DNA from: Chloroflexota bacterium
GTDB lineage: Bacteria; Chloroflexota; Anaerolineae; Promineifilales; Promineifilaceae
Reading direction: 5' to 3'
Length of the DNA: 45,761 nucleotides
Assembly (NCBI GenBank): GCA_012515125.1
Contig: JAAYYY010000205.1
Location: 1-45,761, forward strand
Below the pieces are notes generated by a model. The model was not told where the DNA came from, ran no database searches, and was given only the letters and a program-made list of their open reading frames with translations. A program made the position numbers and the translations under genes. This document shows, piece after piece, positions 19,241-25,846 of the stretch. Every line of letters begins with the position of its first letter. Positions within the stretch are counted from its first letter, which is position 1.

Positions 19241-20050
19241 TTACTCGTCTTCGCCTGCCGCGGAAAAGACCGCCGGCACGGGCTCAGGGCGAGAAAGCCG
19301 CTGGCTCCGGCGCTCGTCTGCCGTCATGCCTGCGGCTCCCACGACCGCCGGCTCTTCCCGCCGCAAGCGGCGGAAGATAGCCGGTACGTGATCCGGCTCC
19401 CGCACCGGGCGCAGGCCTGCCGGGAGAGGCGTGGGCCGTGGCAGGGACGCGCGCCGCGGCTGGCCCTGGGCCAGCGCGGGACGCGACGTGATCTGCCGGG
19501 CCTGGCGCTTCGTCTGCGCGCGCCGCAGGTTCGCGAAGTCGAACATCCAGTTACCGGCGACGGTGAAGGCGCCGATGAACAGGATGCGCGTCAGCCAGAC
19601 GAGCACGGCGACAAAGACCGGCACGACTTCCAGCAGCTGCTGCCGGGAGAGGACCTCGTTGCCCAGATCATGGTTAAGCAGGGTGAGCGATACAGCCCAC
19701 CAGGTCATCAGGGCGTTCATCGTCGCGCCAAGCAGCCAGGCGCCCATCAAGTACCAGACGCCGACCGGCGTGGGGGCGTCTTCCTCTTCAGGCAGGAAGA
19801 AGCGCACCAGACCGGCAAAGTCAATGGCGCAGAAAGCGATCGCCAGAACCGTGGCCCAACGCAGCCCGGCAAAGGTGACGCCGCCCAGTAGATTGTCCAA
19901 CGCATAGCGCGTTGTATCGAAGTTGAAGATCTCAAACGCAACTAGCGCCATCAGAAACAGGAGGCCGATGACCATTTGCCCGGAAAGGGACAGATGCAGG
20001 CCATCGTCTGCCTGCTGTCGCTGCTCGTTTGTCAGAAACTTTACAGCCAC
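19241..20050 (-). CDS. Four-TM membrane protein of unknown function
   Basis: GTG start 20050 after GAGGAGGT; four hydrophobic helices; basic C-terminal tail. Confidence 0.75.
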   Translation of the reverse strand: MAVKFLTNEQRQQADDGLHLSLSGQMVIGLLFLMALVAFEIFNFDTTRYALDNLLGGVTFAGLRWATVLAIAFCAIDFAGLVRFFLPEEEDAPTPVGVWYLMGAWLLGATMNALMTWWAVSLTLLNHDLGNEVLSRQQLLEVVPVFVAVLVWLTRILFIGAFTVAGNWMFDFANLRRAQTKRQARQITSRPALAQGQPRRASLPRPTPLPAGLRPVREPDHVPAIFRRLRREEPAVVGAAGMTADERRSQRLSRPEPVPAVFSAAGEDE

Positions 20051-20154
20051 CGTCTATACCTCCTCTACAGGAATGGGCCGGCGCCGGGCGCCAACCCTGA
20101 AAAGCACCTCTTCAATTCCTCAGTTGCCCCGCGGGGAAGAAACGGACCTATTTA

Positions 20155-20180
20155 GAACAGATGTTCTAGAACAAGTGTTC
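20155..20180. promoter_or_regulatory. Two abutting LexA/SOS boxes of Gram-positive type
   Basis: GAACAGATGTTC (20155-20166) and GAACAAGTGTTC (20169-20180), each within AGAAC-N4-GTTCT and both fitting GAAC-RNRY-GTTC. Confidence 0.85.
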
Positions 20181-20182
20181 TT

Positions 20183-20690: not shown

Positions 20691-20732
20691 CCTGGGGTAG
20701 CTACCCTTCACACAACGGGTAGCTACCCCAGG
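20691..20732. repeat. Perfect 16-bp inverted repeat containing two copies of palindrome GGGTAGCTACCC
   Basis: CCTGGGGTAGCTACCC-ttcacacaac-GGGTAGCTACCCCAGG. Confidence 0.9.
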
Positions 20733-20794
20733 AAGTATAACAGATGTGGGCAGCCGGTACAGGCCAACCGGTAACCGGTAATGGAGTGCCGTGC

Positions 20795-22183
20795 TTACTC
20801 GGCCGGACCCTCGTGGAAGATGGCCGGCTGTTCGTCGCCCTCGACAATCAGGAGCGCTGCCAGGCCACGTTCGGAGCGGCTGAGGGCATGGTCTACGAGC
20901 ACGTAGTGGCCCGGCACCTCGACCGTAAACTCGACCACCGTAGCGCCGCCCGGCGGCACCGGCACCGTCTGAACGTCGGTCACCGGCCCGCTGGTTACGG
21001 AGCCCAGGTTGTAGACGCGGTCAAAGATCTCGCCGATGACGTGGAAGGAGGATGTCTTGTTGGGCCCGCCGACGCCGAAGAAGATACGCACCGTCTCGCC
21101 GACTTCGGCCCGCATCGCATTCTCCTCCAGCGTCAGGCCGCCGGCAGCGCCGTTGAAGACGAAGTATTCCGGCGTTTCGTGGCTCATCTTCTCCGGGTCG
21201 AAGGTGAGCAGGCCGGTGCTGCCATAAGGCTCGGCCGTGTACATCTCGCCCTGCATCACGTAGAACTCGCGATCGACAGGCGGCAGGCCCCCTTCCGGTT
21301 CGACGACGATCAGGCCGTACATGCCGTTGGTAATGTGGTGCGGCACGCTCGGCGTGGCGCAGTGATAGACGTAGACGCCGGGATTACGCGCCTCGAAGGT
21401 GAAGACGCGCTCTTCGCCGGGCGGGGTCTGGGTCAGACCGCCGCCGCCGTGCGGTCCGTTCACAGCGTGCAGGTCGATGGAATGGGCGAACTCGCTACCG
21501 TCCTCGTTCTGTACGCGCAGCTCGACAGTGTCACCTTCACGCACGCGCAGCATCGGGCCGGGCACGGTGCCGTCGAAAGTGAAGTAGTTATAGGTGGCGC
21601 CGTCGGCCAGCTGCCCTTCCATCTCCACAGCCGTCAGAGTCACCTGCACCAGCTCGGGCCCGCGCTCGCCGATCGGGGCGGGTAGGTCAGCCGGCCGGTG
21701 GACAATGTCGGCCCCTCCGGTCTCGGCAACCGGCTCGCCGACCCGGATGATGCCTTCCATCCCAGCCTGCCGGTGACCCGGCACGGAGCAGAAGTAGGCA
21801 AATTCGCCGGCCTCGCCAACCGTAAAGGTAATGGTCGCCGAGCTATCTTTGGCCGATAGCTCGCCGGTCGTGACGCCGAATGCATCCACGGTCAGGTCGT
21901 GAGCCATCCCGTCGCCGTTGATCAGGGTGATCGTCACGGTGTCGCCGGGCTCTGCTGCCAGCGTGGGATTAACCACGCCGTCGATGTCGCCGCCCACGCC
22001 GACGAAGGCCAGCCCGTGTTCCATAGAGGTGCGCAGCGTAAACTCGACGTCGCCGCCGAGATCGGCAGCCTCTGGCTCTGGCTCCTCGGGCAAAGCGCAG
22101 CCGACAAGGACCAGCAGAAGCAAACCAAAAAGCACCCCAAAGCGCAGCCAACGCCGGCCGGGAATTGTTCTCAAAACAGACAT
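20795..22183 (-). CDS. nirK: Copper-containing nitrite reductase with N-terminal cupredoxin domain; lipoprotein
   Basis: Lipobox LVLVGC; N-terminal blue-copper FAYFCSVPGHRQAGMEG; NirK motifs HSIDLHAVNGPHGGG, VYHCATPSVPHHITNGMYG, SSFHVIGEIFDRVY, YVLVDHALSR. Confidence 0.9.
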   Translation of the reverse strand: MSVLRTIPGRRWLRFGVLFGLLLLVLVGCALPEEPEPEAADLGGDVEFTLRTSMEHGLAFVGVGGDIDGVVNPTLAAEPGDTVTITLINGDGMAHDLTVDAFGVTTGELSAKDSSATITFTVGEAGEFAYFCSVPGHRQAGMEGIIRVGEPVAETGGADIVHRPADLPAPIGERGPELVQVTLTAVEMEGQLADGATYNYFTFDGTVPGPMLRVREGDTVELRVQNEDGSEFAHSIDLHAVNGPHGGGGLTQTPPGEERVFTFEARNPGVYVYHCATPSVPHHITNGMYGLIVVEPEGGLPPVDREFYVMQGEMYTAEPYGSTGLLTFDPEKMSHETPEYFVFNGAAGGLTLEENAMRAEVGETVRIFFGVGGPNKTSSFHVIGEIFDRVYNLGSVTSGPVTDVQTVPVPPGGATVVEFTVEVPGHYVLVDHALSRSERGLAALLIVEGDEQPAIFHEGPAE

Positions 22184-22235: not shown

Positions 22236-22241
22236 ATCATA
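22236..22241 (-). promoter_or_regulatory. -10 element of predicted nirK promoter
   Basis: Minus strand TATGAT; places +1 near 22229. Confidence 0.55.
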
Positions 22242-22263
22242 GATCGATCTCCGGCGCAGGGAC

Positions 22264-22277
22264 TTGATCTGGATCAA
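22264..22277. promoter_or_regulatory. FNR/DNR-type operator upstream of nirK
   Basis: TTGATCTGGATCAA, exact match to TTGAT-N4-ATCAA. Confidence 0.85.
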
Positions 22278-22330
22278 GCCCTGCGCCGGATTCAGCTATT
22301 TCTCACTTTGTGAAAAAGGGAACGCTTGCG

Positions 22331-24280
22331 CTAGGCGCGCAGCAGGCGCATGCCGTTGAGGATAACCACGAGCACCGACGCTTCGTGAACCAGCATGCCG
22401 CCGGCCATGTGGACCTCGCCCAGCAACACGCCGGCAAGGAGCAGGCCGACGGTGGCGAGGGCAATCGCCACGTTCTGGTGGATGTTACGCAGCGTCGCGT
22501 GGGATAGGCTGATGGCTTCCGGAAGCTTGAGCAGGTCGTCGGACATCAGCGCGACGTCAGCCGTTTCCAGGGCGATGTCGGTGCCCGCCGCACCCATGGC
22601 GATGCCGATGTCGGCCGCGGCCAGGGCCGGCGCGTCATTGATGCCGTCGCCGACCATAGCCACGACGTGCCCCTTGCTCTGTAGGCGGCGAATGGCCTCC
22701 AGCTTCTCTTCCGGCAGCAGTCCGGCGTGGACGTTAGTGATGCCGGTCTGATGGGCGATGGCTTCGGCCGTGCGCCGGTTGTCGCCCGTGAGCATGGCGA
22801 TCTCCTTCACGCCCGAGGCGCGCAGCCGGCGAACCATTTCCGCCGCGTCCGGCCGGACGGTATCGGCGATGCCCAGGACGCCGATAACTTCCCGGCCCAC
22901 ACTGACGAGCACGGCGGTCTTGCCTTCGTCCTGCAGGCGTTGCCGCTCCGTCTCGGCCCGTTGCGTTGCGCGAATCTCCAGCCGCTCCAGGAGCGCCGGC
23001 GTGCCGACGGCAATCGTCTGCCCGCCGTACCCGGCGATCACCCCCTGACCGGTGAAGGTCTCGAAATGGTCGGCGTCGGAGAGGCCGGGCAGGTCGCCAG
23101 CAGCCTCGACAATGGAGGCCGCCAGTGGATGCTCCGAGCCGGCCTCGGCAATCGCCGCCCAGCGCAGCACGTCCTGCTCCTGTGCGCTCCAGCGAGAGTC
23201 GCCGTTCGACGGCTCCAGAGCCCGCCCGCTGCCTCCGGCGGGAACGGCAGCCATCTCCGCCACCGGTACAGGCGCCAGCGCGACGACGTCAGTCACGCGC
23301 GGCCGGCCGGCGGTGAGCGTGCCGGTCTTGTCCAGGGCCAGGGCGGAGATCTTACCTGCGTTCTCCAGATAGTCGCCGCCCTTGATCAGGATGCCGCGCT
23401 GGGCGGCTCGCCCGATACCGGCGACGACGGAGACAGGCGTGGAAATAACCAGCGCGCCGGGGCAGCCGATGACCAGCAGCGTCAGCGCCAGCTCGACGTC
23501 CCGGGTCAGAAGGAAGGCGACGCCGCTGAGGCCGATGATGAACGGTGTATACCAGCGGGCGAAGCGCTCGATGAAGCGCTGCACCGGCGCCTTTTCTTCC
23601 TGGGCTTCTTCCACGCGGCGGATGATGCGCGCCAGTGTCGTGTCCGCGCCGATGCCCGTGGCGCGCAGGCGCAGCAGGCCGGCCTGGTTGACCGTGCCGG
23701 CGAACAGCTCGTCGCCGGTACTCTTCTCGACGGGAAGCGGCTCGCCCGTGATGGCGCTCTCGTCCACAGCCGAGCGCCCGCCGACGACGATGCCATCAAC
23801 CGGTACCTTGCTGCCCGGCTTGACGAGAACGATTTCGTCAGGCAGCACTTCGTACGGCGCGACCTCGACCTGCTGGCCGTCGCGCACGACGGTCGCCGTC
23901 GCCGGAGCCAGCTCCAGCAACCCCTGGAGCACCTGGCGGGTGCGGTCCAGCGTGCGGGCCTCCAGGTAAGCGCCGAGCAGGAAGAGGAAAGTCACGGCGG
24001 CTGCTTCCCAGACCTCGCCGATGAGCAGCGCGCCCCCGGCGGCAATCGTCACCAGCAGCTCGATGCTCACATGGCGATTGCGCAGGCTGTGCCAGGCGCG
24101 CACGGCGATGTCGCCGCCGGCCAGCAGGGCTGCAGCCGCCATGAAGGGGTCGTGCCAGCCGTCCTGCTGCAGAAGATGGCGTGCCCCCAGGGCGGCGAGG
24201 ATGAGCAGCCCACTGAGGATCATCAGCAGGCGGCGGCGCCGCGCCGGGTGGCGCCACGTCGCGGCCAGAGTGGCTACCAT
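22331..24280 (-). CDS. Heavy-metal P1B-type ATPase with CPG membrane motif
   Basis: [45 protein letters not shown] motif [14 protein letters not shown]. Confidence 0.9.
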
Positions 24281-24291
24281 CTCGGGCTTCC

Positions 24292-24507
24292 TCAGAAGGC
24301 CGAAGGCTCGGCTTCGTAGCCGGCGGCGCGCACGGCTTCGACAAGCCGGGATACGCCGGTCTGCGCCGGGTCGTGTTCGACCTCGATCCGGCCGGTGTTG
24401 AAGTGCACGGTGGCGCTTTCGACGCCGGGTACGTTTTGCAGCGCCTTCTCGATTTTGACGACGCAGGATGGGCAGGAAAGCTCGCGGCTACGCAACAGGG
24501 TCTTCAT
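24292..24507 (-). CDS. Stand-alone HMA-domain metallochaperone
   Basis: [38 protein letters not shown]; CxxC motif; SD GAAGGAG. Confidence 0.88.
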
Positions 24508-24584
24508 CTTGTTTTATCTCCTTCGTGATCCAGTATGGCGATCAATCACTGCCCATAGATTAACCGGTCGCCGGCCGGCAAAAC

Positions 24585-24598
24585 ATGATCTGGATCAG
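24585..24598. promoter_or_regulatory. FNR/CRP-like operator upstream of HMA-ATPase operon
   Basis: ATGATCTGGATCAG; shares the 12-mer TGATCTGGATCA with the nirK operator. Confidence 0.65.
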
Positions 24599-24642
24599 TT
24601 AGCCGCAAAGGAGATGATGGATTTTTGCGCTCGAGGGGGAAA

Positions 24643-25014
24643 CTACGGCTTCCGCGCGTTCCGGGCGGCTGCTTCGATCAGCGTCTCTATTCCTTCCCGA
24701 TGCACATCCGCCACGCTATGGAGCTTGACGTGGCGTAGCTGTTTGCCTGTGCCCACCAGCAGGCCGTGTGGATCTTCCAGGTCGGCGCCGTGGAAGAAAC
24801 CCAGATTCACGTGGTTCTTGAATGGCGACAGATAGAGGAAAACGTCGGCGTAACGGCCGGTGAAGGAGTAGGTCAGGCTGTTATGCCCTGCTCGGAACTC
24901 GCTTTGGGCTTCGGACAGCAGCTTTTCGACCAGCGCCCGCGCCTCCCGCGCAATGCTGGCGATCCTCTCGTCCTGGCGGGCCAACAGGTCGTCGAAAGTA
25001 GAAGCCCGGGTCAT
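24643..25014 (-). CDS. DUF1801-like domain protein
   Basis: GGAGG upstream of ATG; ALVEKLLSEAQSEFRAGHNSLTYSFTGRYADVFLYLSPFKNHVNLGFFHGADLEDPHGLL. Confidence 0.65.
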   Translation of the reverse strand: MTRASTFDDLLARQDERIASIAREARALVEKLLSEAQSEFRAGHNSLTYSFTGRYADVFLYLSPFKNHVNLGFFHGADLEDPHGLLVGTGKQLRHVKLHSVADVHREGIETLIEAAARNARKP

Positions 25015-25087
25015 GCTCATCCTCCTTTTTCGCCTGGTACAGGCATGGTCGCAGTTGTGGCCGGCCGTTCCCTCGCCCGGGATAAGA

Positions 25088-25846
25088 TCAGGCCAACCCA
25101 TCCTCGGCGAGGGCTGCCAGGGCGGGCTGGTCCGTGATGGCGACCCACTGCCGCCCGCTGGTGATCAACCCCTCTTTCTGCATCTGGCTCATAACGCGGC
25201 TGGTGCTCTCCGGCGTCGTGCCCGTCATCTGTGCCAGATCCTCCCGCGAAAGGGGCGTCTGGATGAGTAGGCCCATCTCCTGTTCTTCGCCCAGCTTCTC
25301 GGCGAGGCGCAACAAGGTGGCGGCGATGCGCTGCTCGACCGGGTAGGCGCTGAGCTGGCGCACGCGCTCCTGGGTGGCCTGCAGCCGGCTGTTGGTCAGG
25401 TCGAGCACAGCCAATGCAGCGGCCGGGTGCTGTTCGAGAATGGCGCGAAAGGCCTGTGTAGCCACGGCGAGGACACAGACCCCGGTCTGGGCGACGGCGG
25501 TTTCCGTATAGACCGCATTTTCCTGGGCGGAGAGGTTGCCGAAGAACTCGCCCGGCGTGAGCACGTCGAGCAGCACGTCCTTGCCGGCGTGGGTATGGTG
25601 CAGCAGCTTGACCTGCCCGGAGGCGACGACGTAGAGGAAAGCCGCCGACTCGCCGCTGTAGGTGATCGTCTCGCCGGCGACGAAACCTTGCTCGCGGAAA
25701 CGCTCGTTGGCCGCGGCAACGGCCTCGGGCGAAAGGGTAGCGAAGAAGGGGAGCGCGCCGAGGATCTCCAGGCGCAGGTCGATGGAGCAGGCTGCAGGGG
25801 GAACTATCTCGACTTCTACGGGGGAACGGCGGCGGCTGTCAGTCAT
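25088..25846 (-). CDS. Crp/Fnr-family transcriptional regulator
   Basis: ATG 25846 (ATGA overlap with upstream gene) after AGGAG; cNMP-binding fold; HTH LSREDLAQMTGTTPESTSRVMSQMQKEGLI with E-x-x-S-R recognition helix. Confidence 0.88.
   Translation of the reverse strand: MTDSRRRSPVEVEIVPPAACSIDLRLEILGALPFFATLSPEAVAAANERFREQGFVAGETITYSGESAAFLYVVASGQVKLLHHTHAGKDVLLDVLTPGEFFGNLSAQENAVYTETAVAQTGVCVLAVATQAFRAILEQHPAAALAVLDLTNSRLQATQERVRQLSAYPVEQRIAATLLRLAEKLGEEQEMGLLIQTPLSREDLAQMTGTTPESTSRVMSQMQKEGLITSGRQWVAITDQPALAALAEDGLA

Follow-up and report, generated by a model that had tools for sequence, protein, structure and literature searches.

Genes and predicted promoter elements around nirK

The window, i.e., the whole stretch of DNA that was analyzed (45,761 nucleotides), is part of a MAG of 4.69 Mb in 721 contigs, with an estimated contamination of 8.8%. 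Its minus strand carries a copper nitrite reductase gene, the genes for a P1B-type metal ATPase and a stand-alone HMA metallochaperone, and the gene for a CRP/FNR-family regulator, here called CrpW. A second regulator of this genome, called CrpF, is encoded on contig C686. The following features are referred to below:

20795..22183, minus strand: nirK, copper nitrite reductase with an N-terminal cupredoxin domain, 462 aa (TIGR02376, 339.7 bits, cut-off 296.3; Pfam Copper-bind at residues 78-148)
22236..22241, minus strand: putative -10 element of nirK, TATGAT, 22 nt from the box
22250..22290, minus strand: 18-bp near-perfect hairpin around the nirK operator, CCGGCGCAGGG-CTTGAT-CCAG-ATCAAG-T-CCCTGCGCCGG
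22263..22278, minus strand: predicted nirK operator CTTGATCCAGATCAAG, CrpF/DNR type, centre at -41.5
22331..24280, minus strand: P1B-type metal ATPase, 649 aa, intramembrane motif with CPG
24292..24507, minus strand: stand-alone HMA metallochaperone, 71 aa, SCPSC motif
24557..24562, minus strand: putative -10 element of the HMA operon, TAATCT, 22 nt from the box
24579..24603, minus strand: predicted HMA operator, CrpW-linked type (consensus of relatives GTTAnnTGAn6TCAnnTAAC), with a 12-mer at 24586-24597 inside
25088..25846, minus strand: CrpW, CRP/FNR-family regulator, 252 aa, recognition helix TTPESTSRVMSQMQ, invariant C20, C124 and H84

The ATPase has CPG where ZntA and CopA have CPC (ZntA-type pumps: CPCALVISTP). 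CPG is also present in those CrpW-linked relatives whose ATPase sequence was read that far, and the literature search yielded nothing specific on CPG-motif P1B-ATPases. At 25843-25846, the stop codon of an upstream gene for a 757-aa transglutaminase-like protein overlaps the start of CrpW, so that CrpW may be translationally coupled to this gene here, unlike in relatives. Elsewhere in the window, tandem palindromes, AGAACAGATGTTCT and AGAACAAGTGTTCT (GAAC-N4-GTTC, LexA/DinR-like), are found at 20154-20181 upstream of a membrane-protein-like ORF (19241-20050, minus strand), and an inverted repeat, GGGTAGCTACCC...GGGTAGCTACCC, is found at 20695-20735 upstream of a small minus-strand ORF.

A rare 12-mer precedes nirK and the HMA operon

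The first-pass annotation had proposed that nirK and the HMA-ATPase operon share an upstream 12-mer. Indeed, TGATCTGGATCA is present at 22265-22276 and at 24586-24597, and no further copy occurs in the window. The genome scan that had been suggested showed the 12-mer to be rare and promoter-linked: four exact copies were found, compared with about 0.19 expected from base composition (P for at least four copies about 4e-5), and a fifth, near-copy precedes ric/ytfE, the product of which matches TIGR03652 with 230.5 bits. The CTGG centre, which had been regarded as non-consensus, reads CCAG in the direction of transcription, and the FNR/DNR box sets no requirement for its four central positions. 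The centre was also dismissed as a shared signature, because relatives have CTAG, CTAA, CCAC and others at this position.

The two sites differ outside the 12-mer. The nirK 14-mer (22264-22277) is a perfect TTGATCTGGATCAA, whereas the HMA 14-mer, ATGATCTGGATCAG, has two mismatches to the FNR box. The flanking bases differ systematically, AAG(G/T) at the nirK site versus ATGT at the HMA site, and separate two operator types. Perfect TTGATN4ATCAA boxes occur eight times in the genome. Four lie ahead of plausible targets, namely nirK (C72), ric/ytfE (C192), a CopD-like gene followed by a flavodoxin gene (C341), and a ferredoxin gene (C686), and all four of these non-HMA sites match exactly CTTGATnnnnATCAAG, the DNR consensus of Pseudomonas and beta-proteobacteria (Rodionov et al. 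2005, PMC1274295). The contigs of CrpF and of the three targets outside the window were assigned to this genome by binning. The other four perfect boxes (C445, C484 and two in C714) are located within coding sequences or overlap gene ends, none has a -10 element at N22 with a fitting target, and they were not counted as regulon members. Two weaker candidate sites, on C106 and C577, were dropped because the downstream start was not sensible.

The boxes are centred at -41.5 of predicted promoters

For the HMA operon, the proposed TAATCT at 24562-24557, which gives a position of -41.5, is present, and the TATGAT of nirK (22241-22236) is equally spaced. In fact, at all five sites the distance from the 14-bp box to a downstream TANNNT is exactly 22 nt; the putative -10 elements of ric, copD and the ferredoxin gene are TATGCT, TATGCT and TACTCT. 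The box centre is thereby placed at -41.5, counted from start sites that are inferred from the predicted -10 elements. At class II promoters, FNR-type activators occupy this position. Genome-wide, the exact combination box-N22-TANNNT occurs four times, each time upstream of a plausible target gene. A reversed control contained none, and base composition predicts about 0.006. Across the order, the 56 genomes examined (the own genome and 55 relatives) contain 37 occurrences, versus one in the control. In an unbiased set of 68 TTGATN4ATCAA sites from four genomes, TANNNT was found 11 times at N22, whereas the other spacings had it 1.6 times on average (p 7e-7). Judging from their sequences, the sites are predicted CRP/FNR-type class II promoters with the operator centred at -41.5.

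The nirK operator is embedded in the 18-bp stem of the hairpin, which has a folding z-score of -5.8. It might therefore be mainly the loop of a long intercistronic element that separates the ATPase and nirK transcripts and acts in termination, processing or stability. This is highly improbable, since the three other exact sites share the box and the -10 spacing without such arms, relatives' nirK-like genes carry the box at an equal -10 spacing, and a T-run is absent after the stem. The hairpin could shape read-through from the ATPase gene into nirK.

Two CRP/FNR-family proteins with an E-x-x-S-R helix

Four clear CRP/FNR proteins are encoded in the genome, and two of them have an E-x-x-S-R helix, CrpW (TTPESTSR) and CrpF (TTPETVSR). 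The two other paralogs, on C100 (GTTLYTVSR) and C28 (GATRVSINK), lack this helix and were rejected as candidate regulators. The description of the protein encoded at 25846-25088 as a CRP/FNR regulator with the helix TTPESTSRVMSQMQ and without an FNR-type cysteine cluster proved accurate: PF00027 and PF13545 matched CrpW above the cut-off. CrpF belongs to the same superfamily (PF13545, 63.6 bits, above the cut-off; CRP/FNR structures matched over the full length), and its gene ends about a dozen nucleotides before the ferredoxin box.

Neither protein has an FNR-type N-terminal cysteine cluster, as CrpF contains no cysteine and CrpW only C20 and C124, and both score below the cut-off of the FNR [4Fe-4S] subfamily model NF008365. 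The features by which the cAMP-CRP type was defined, TGTGA half-sites and an R-E-x-x-x-R helix, are also absent: the half-sites are TTGAT/TGA, E-x-x-S-R is found in both alignments, and the NF008732 scores are below the cut-off. DNR (3dkw) is among the top five solved matches of CrpF, with 73.8 bits, tied with GlxR/CRP-type and 3fx3 proteins, whereas CrpW matches DNR with 41.9 bits. Because CrpF is free of cysteine and DNR is tied among its best solved relatives, we designate it DNR-like on sequence grounds and do not claim orthology to DNR. In a tree, CrpF and CrpW form separate clades with support values of 100/100 and 100/99. C20, C124 and H84 are invariant across the CrpW alignment.

The nirK-type box co-occurs with CrpF

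CrpF orthologs were found in 11 of the 56 genomes (46-63% identity), and a gap separates them from the next proteins at about 41%. Box sites occur in 11/11 genomes with CrpF, but in only 8/45 others (Fisher, p 5e-7, which is optimistic because related genomes are not independent). In the genomes without CrpF, eight of ten box sites lie inside long ORFs. Although shared ancestry inflates the p-values, the adjacency of CrpF and box is independent support: the CrpF gene adjoins a box in 8 of the 11 genomes (G000, G010, G018, G026, G027 with two copies, G029, G033 and G042), often with nirK next. A separate search of GTDB genomes yielded 24 Chloroflexota CrpF loci, Promineifilum and Caldilineaceae MAGs among them. 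Outside the family set, 7 of 17 CrpF loci carry a perfect box, compared with about 0.2 expected, and it often lies directly downstream of CrpF and ahead of a NirK-like gene.

In relatives, the genes adjacent to boxes encode cytochrome c-NirK fusions, NrfHA, NosZ, ScdA/RIC-type proteins and a protoglobin (in a cupin-protoglobin operon), and furthermore a ferredoxin/MIP18-type Fe-S assembly/Mrp operon, CopD, flavodoxin, and DUF2249- and NnrS-like proteins. The DUF2249- and NnrS-like genes were named by eye, as were NosZ, ScdA and Mrp from their translations.

CrpW co-occurs with the HMA operon and a distinct operator

CrpW orthologs (53-59% identity) were found in seven genomes. All seven also encode the stand-alone HMA chaperone (64-68% identity), which none of the others has (7/7 versus 0/49; p 4e-9, again optimistic because of relatedness). 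It adjoins CrpW in all seven genomes and is followed by the ATPase; in the window, CrpW and the HMA promoter are separated by one small gene, a DUF1801 gene at 24643-25014, whereas CrpW and the HMA gene are directly adjacent in relatives. The HMA promoters of relatives share a conserved, distinct operator, GTTAnnTGAn6TCAnnTAAC (e.g., GTTATTTGAGCCAGATCATGTAAC), with the -10 element at N22 and the centre at -41.5. Near-exact copies (at most one mismatch) are found at the HMA promoter in 4/7 genomes, and the few scattered others are at about the level of the control. The core in relatives (TGAGCCAGATCA, TGATGGAGATCA) differs from that in the window, where the outer arms are degenerate relative to the relatives' consensus.

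Weight matrices for the CrpF class and the HMA class were trained on relatives only, leaving out the own genome. The scores (bits, CrpF class versus HMA class) were 16.3 versus 10.5 for nirK, 34.3 versus 2.3 for ric, 31.5 versus 11.9 for copD, 27.5 versus 13.6 for the ferredoxin gene, and 7.1 versus 23.1 for the HMA site. The first four sites of this genome are hence placed in the CrpF class and its HMA site in the HMA class.

The first-pass annotation had assigned a single shared operator to the nearby Crp/Fnr gene. That CrpW alone reads the 12-mer at every site, nirK and HMA included, would fit its E-x-x-S-R helix, its distance of less than 4 kb from both window sites, and the identity of the 12-mer at the two. 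However, across the 56 genomes the nirK-type box tracks CrpF, and CrpW tracks only the HMA operon with its distinct operator. CrpW is missing from 6 of the 11 genomes with a box regulon, genomes with CrpW but without CrpF have no box site (G036) or one (G034, a TTGATN4ATCAA box at a flavodoxin gene in a genome that is 68% complete and in which CrpF was undetected), the boxes adjoin CrpF genes, and the CrpW-linked HMA operators form another motif class. We therefore regard a sole role of CrpW as very unlikely.

Conversely, CrpF might govern all five sites including the HMA-ATPase operon, while CrpW modulates or does something else. In the own genome, the HMA site and the CrpF sites have the same core and the same -10 spacing, and CrpF, narG-like genes and the HMA genes occur together in a nitrate/nitrite island of G026 and G027. 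Against this, HMA operators fit the CrpF matrix poorly, in the own genome as in all relatives; the HMA operator is present in G034 and G036, where CrpF was undetected; and CrpW and HMA co-occur perfectly. Together, these points make this alternative rather unlikely.

A model of two related class II circuits

The sites, their spacing, the co-occurrence, the gene adjacency and the two motif classes are best explained by two related but separate class II circuits, a DNR-like nitrogen-oxide regulon of CrpF and a dedicated CrpW-HMA-ATPase module, which we consider the probable arrangement. CrpF would bind CTTGATnnnnATCAAG centred at -41.5 and would activate nirK, the Fe-S repair gene ric/ytfE, the CopD-like/flavodoxin operon and the ferredoxin gene, most likely in the presence of NO or related nitrogen oxides. 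CrpW would serve only the neighbouring HMA chaperone/P-type ATPase operon and would activate it via GTTAnnTGAn6TCAnnTAAC at -41.5. Of the compact nitrite-reduction/metal-homeostasis regulon that had been suggested, the grouping of nirK with nitrosative-stress genes and the class II sites at -41.5 are retained, while the HMA-ATPase is assigned to the separate CrpW module by operator class and co-occurrence.

Because both helices are E-x-x-S-R and both operators have a TGA-n6-TCA core, the identical 12-mer reflects the resemblance of two operators rather than one shared operator. As the HMA operator of the window shares its core with the CrpF sites and is degenerate in its outer arms, CrpF may bind it too, and cross-binding between the CrpF and CrpW operators in this genome is possible. 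A flavodoxin promoter of G010 (C59, L162:1388) has a hybrid box, TTGATCCAAATCATGTAC, half of CrpF type and half of HMA type. In G010, G026 and G027 a CrpF-type box lies ahead of a ferredoxin gene directly upstream of CrpW, so that a cascade from CrpF to CrpW is possible. Tentatively, and with considerable doubt, CrpW might be the founding member of a small group of CRP/FNR activators that serve only a stand-alone HMA chaperone and a CPG-type P1B-ATPase. It would act at its own operator, GTTAnnTGAn6TCAnnTAAC, would sense a metal, NO or redox signal through the thiols of Cys20 and Cys124, and would be wired below the DNR-like CrpF.

For uncultured Anaerolineae-type Chloroflexota, the model proposes a concrete and testable circuit by which the transcription of nitrite-reduction genes would be controlled. 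It makes CrpF, and not its paralog CrpW near nirK, the candidate nirK regulator, with targets that are predictable from sequence, and it illustrates that paralogous regulators with near-identical operator cores are separable by flanking bases and co-occurrence.

Comparison with known regulators

The literature searched contained no description of a nitrogen-oxide regulon of Anaerolineae-type Chloroflexota. A study of NirS fusions (PMC8756737) does not discuss CRP/FNR regulators, and the abstract of a report on CRP/FNR regulons in an anammox reactor (PMC8510549) lists no Chloroflexi regulon. The NnrR regulon has the consensus ctTTGcgnnnncgCAAag (PMC1274295); the half-sites observed here, CTTGAT, do not fit it.

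The predicted circuits share with E. coli-type FNR the TTGATN4ATCAA box, the class II position and the E-x-x-S-R helix, but both regulators differ from it in the absence of the N-terminal cysteine cluster.

In the case of FixK2 and fixGHIS/ccoGHIS, a CRP/FNR regulator controls a metal P1B-ATPase in low-oxygen metabolism. Unlike in that system, CrpW is adjacent and seemingly dedicated to its operon, the HMA chaperone is stand-alone, and the ATPase has CPG instead of CPC; no cbb3 oxidase assembly genes were seen beside the CrpW-HMA-ATPase locus.

The DNR regulon has sites upstream of nir and nos genes and extends to nnrS/hmp/dnrN-type genes (PMC1274295). The box-adjacent targets in relatives resemble those of DNR, and CTTGATnnnnATCAAG upstream of nir/nor/nos genes, by which a DNR regulon is recognized, is found here as the exact nirK site and, in relatives, at NirK fusions and NosZ. 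CrpF is like DNR in its predicted sites, its helix and the lack of an FNR cysteine cluster. It differs in being a Chloroflexota protein for which PDB searches give about equal similarity to DNR and to GlxR/CRP-type and 3fx3 proteins, in having ferredoxin, MIP18-type, CopD and flavodoxin genes among its predicted targets, and in a GGC extension downstream of the box.
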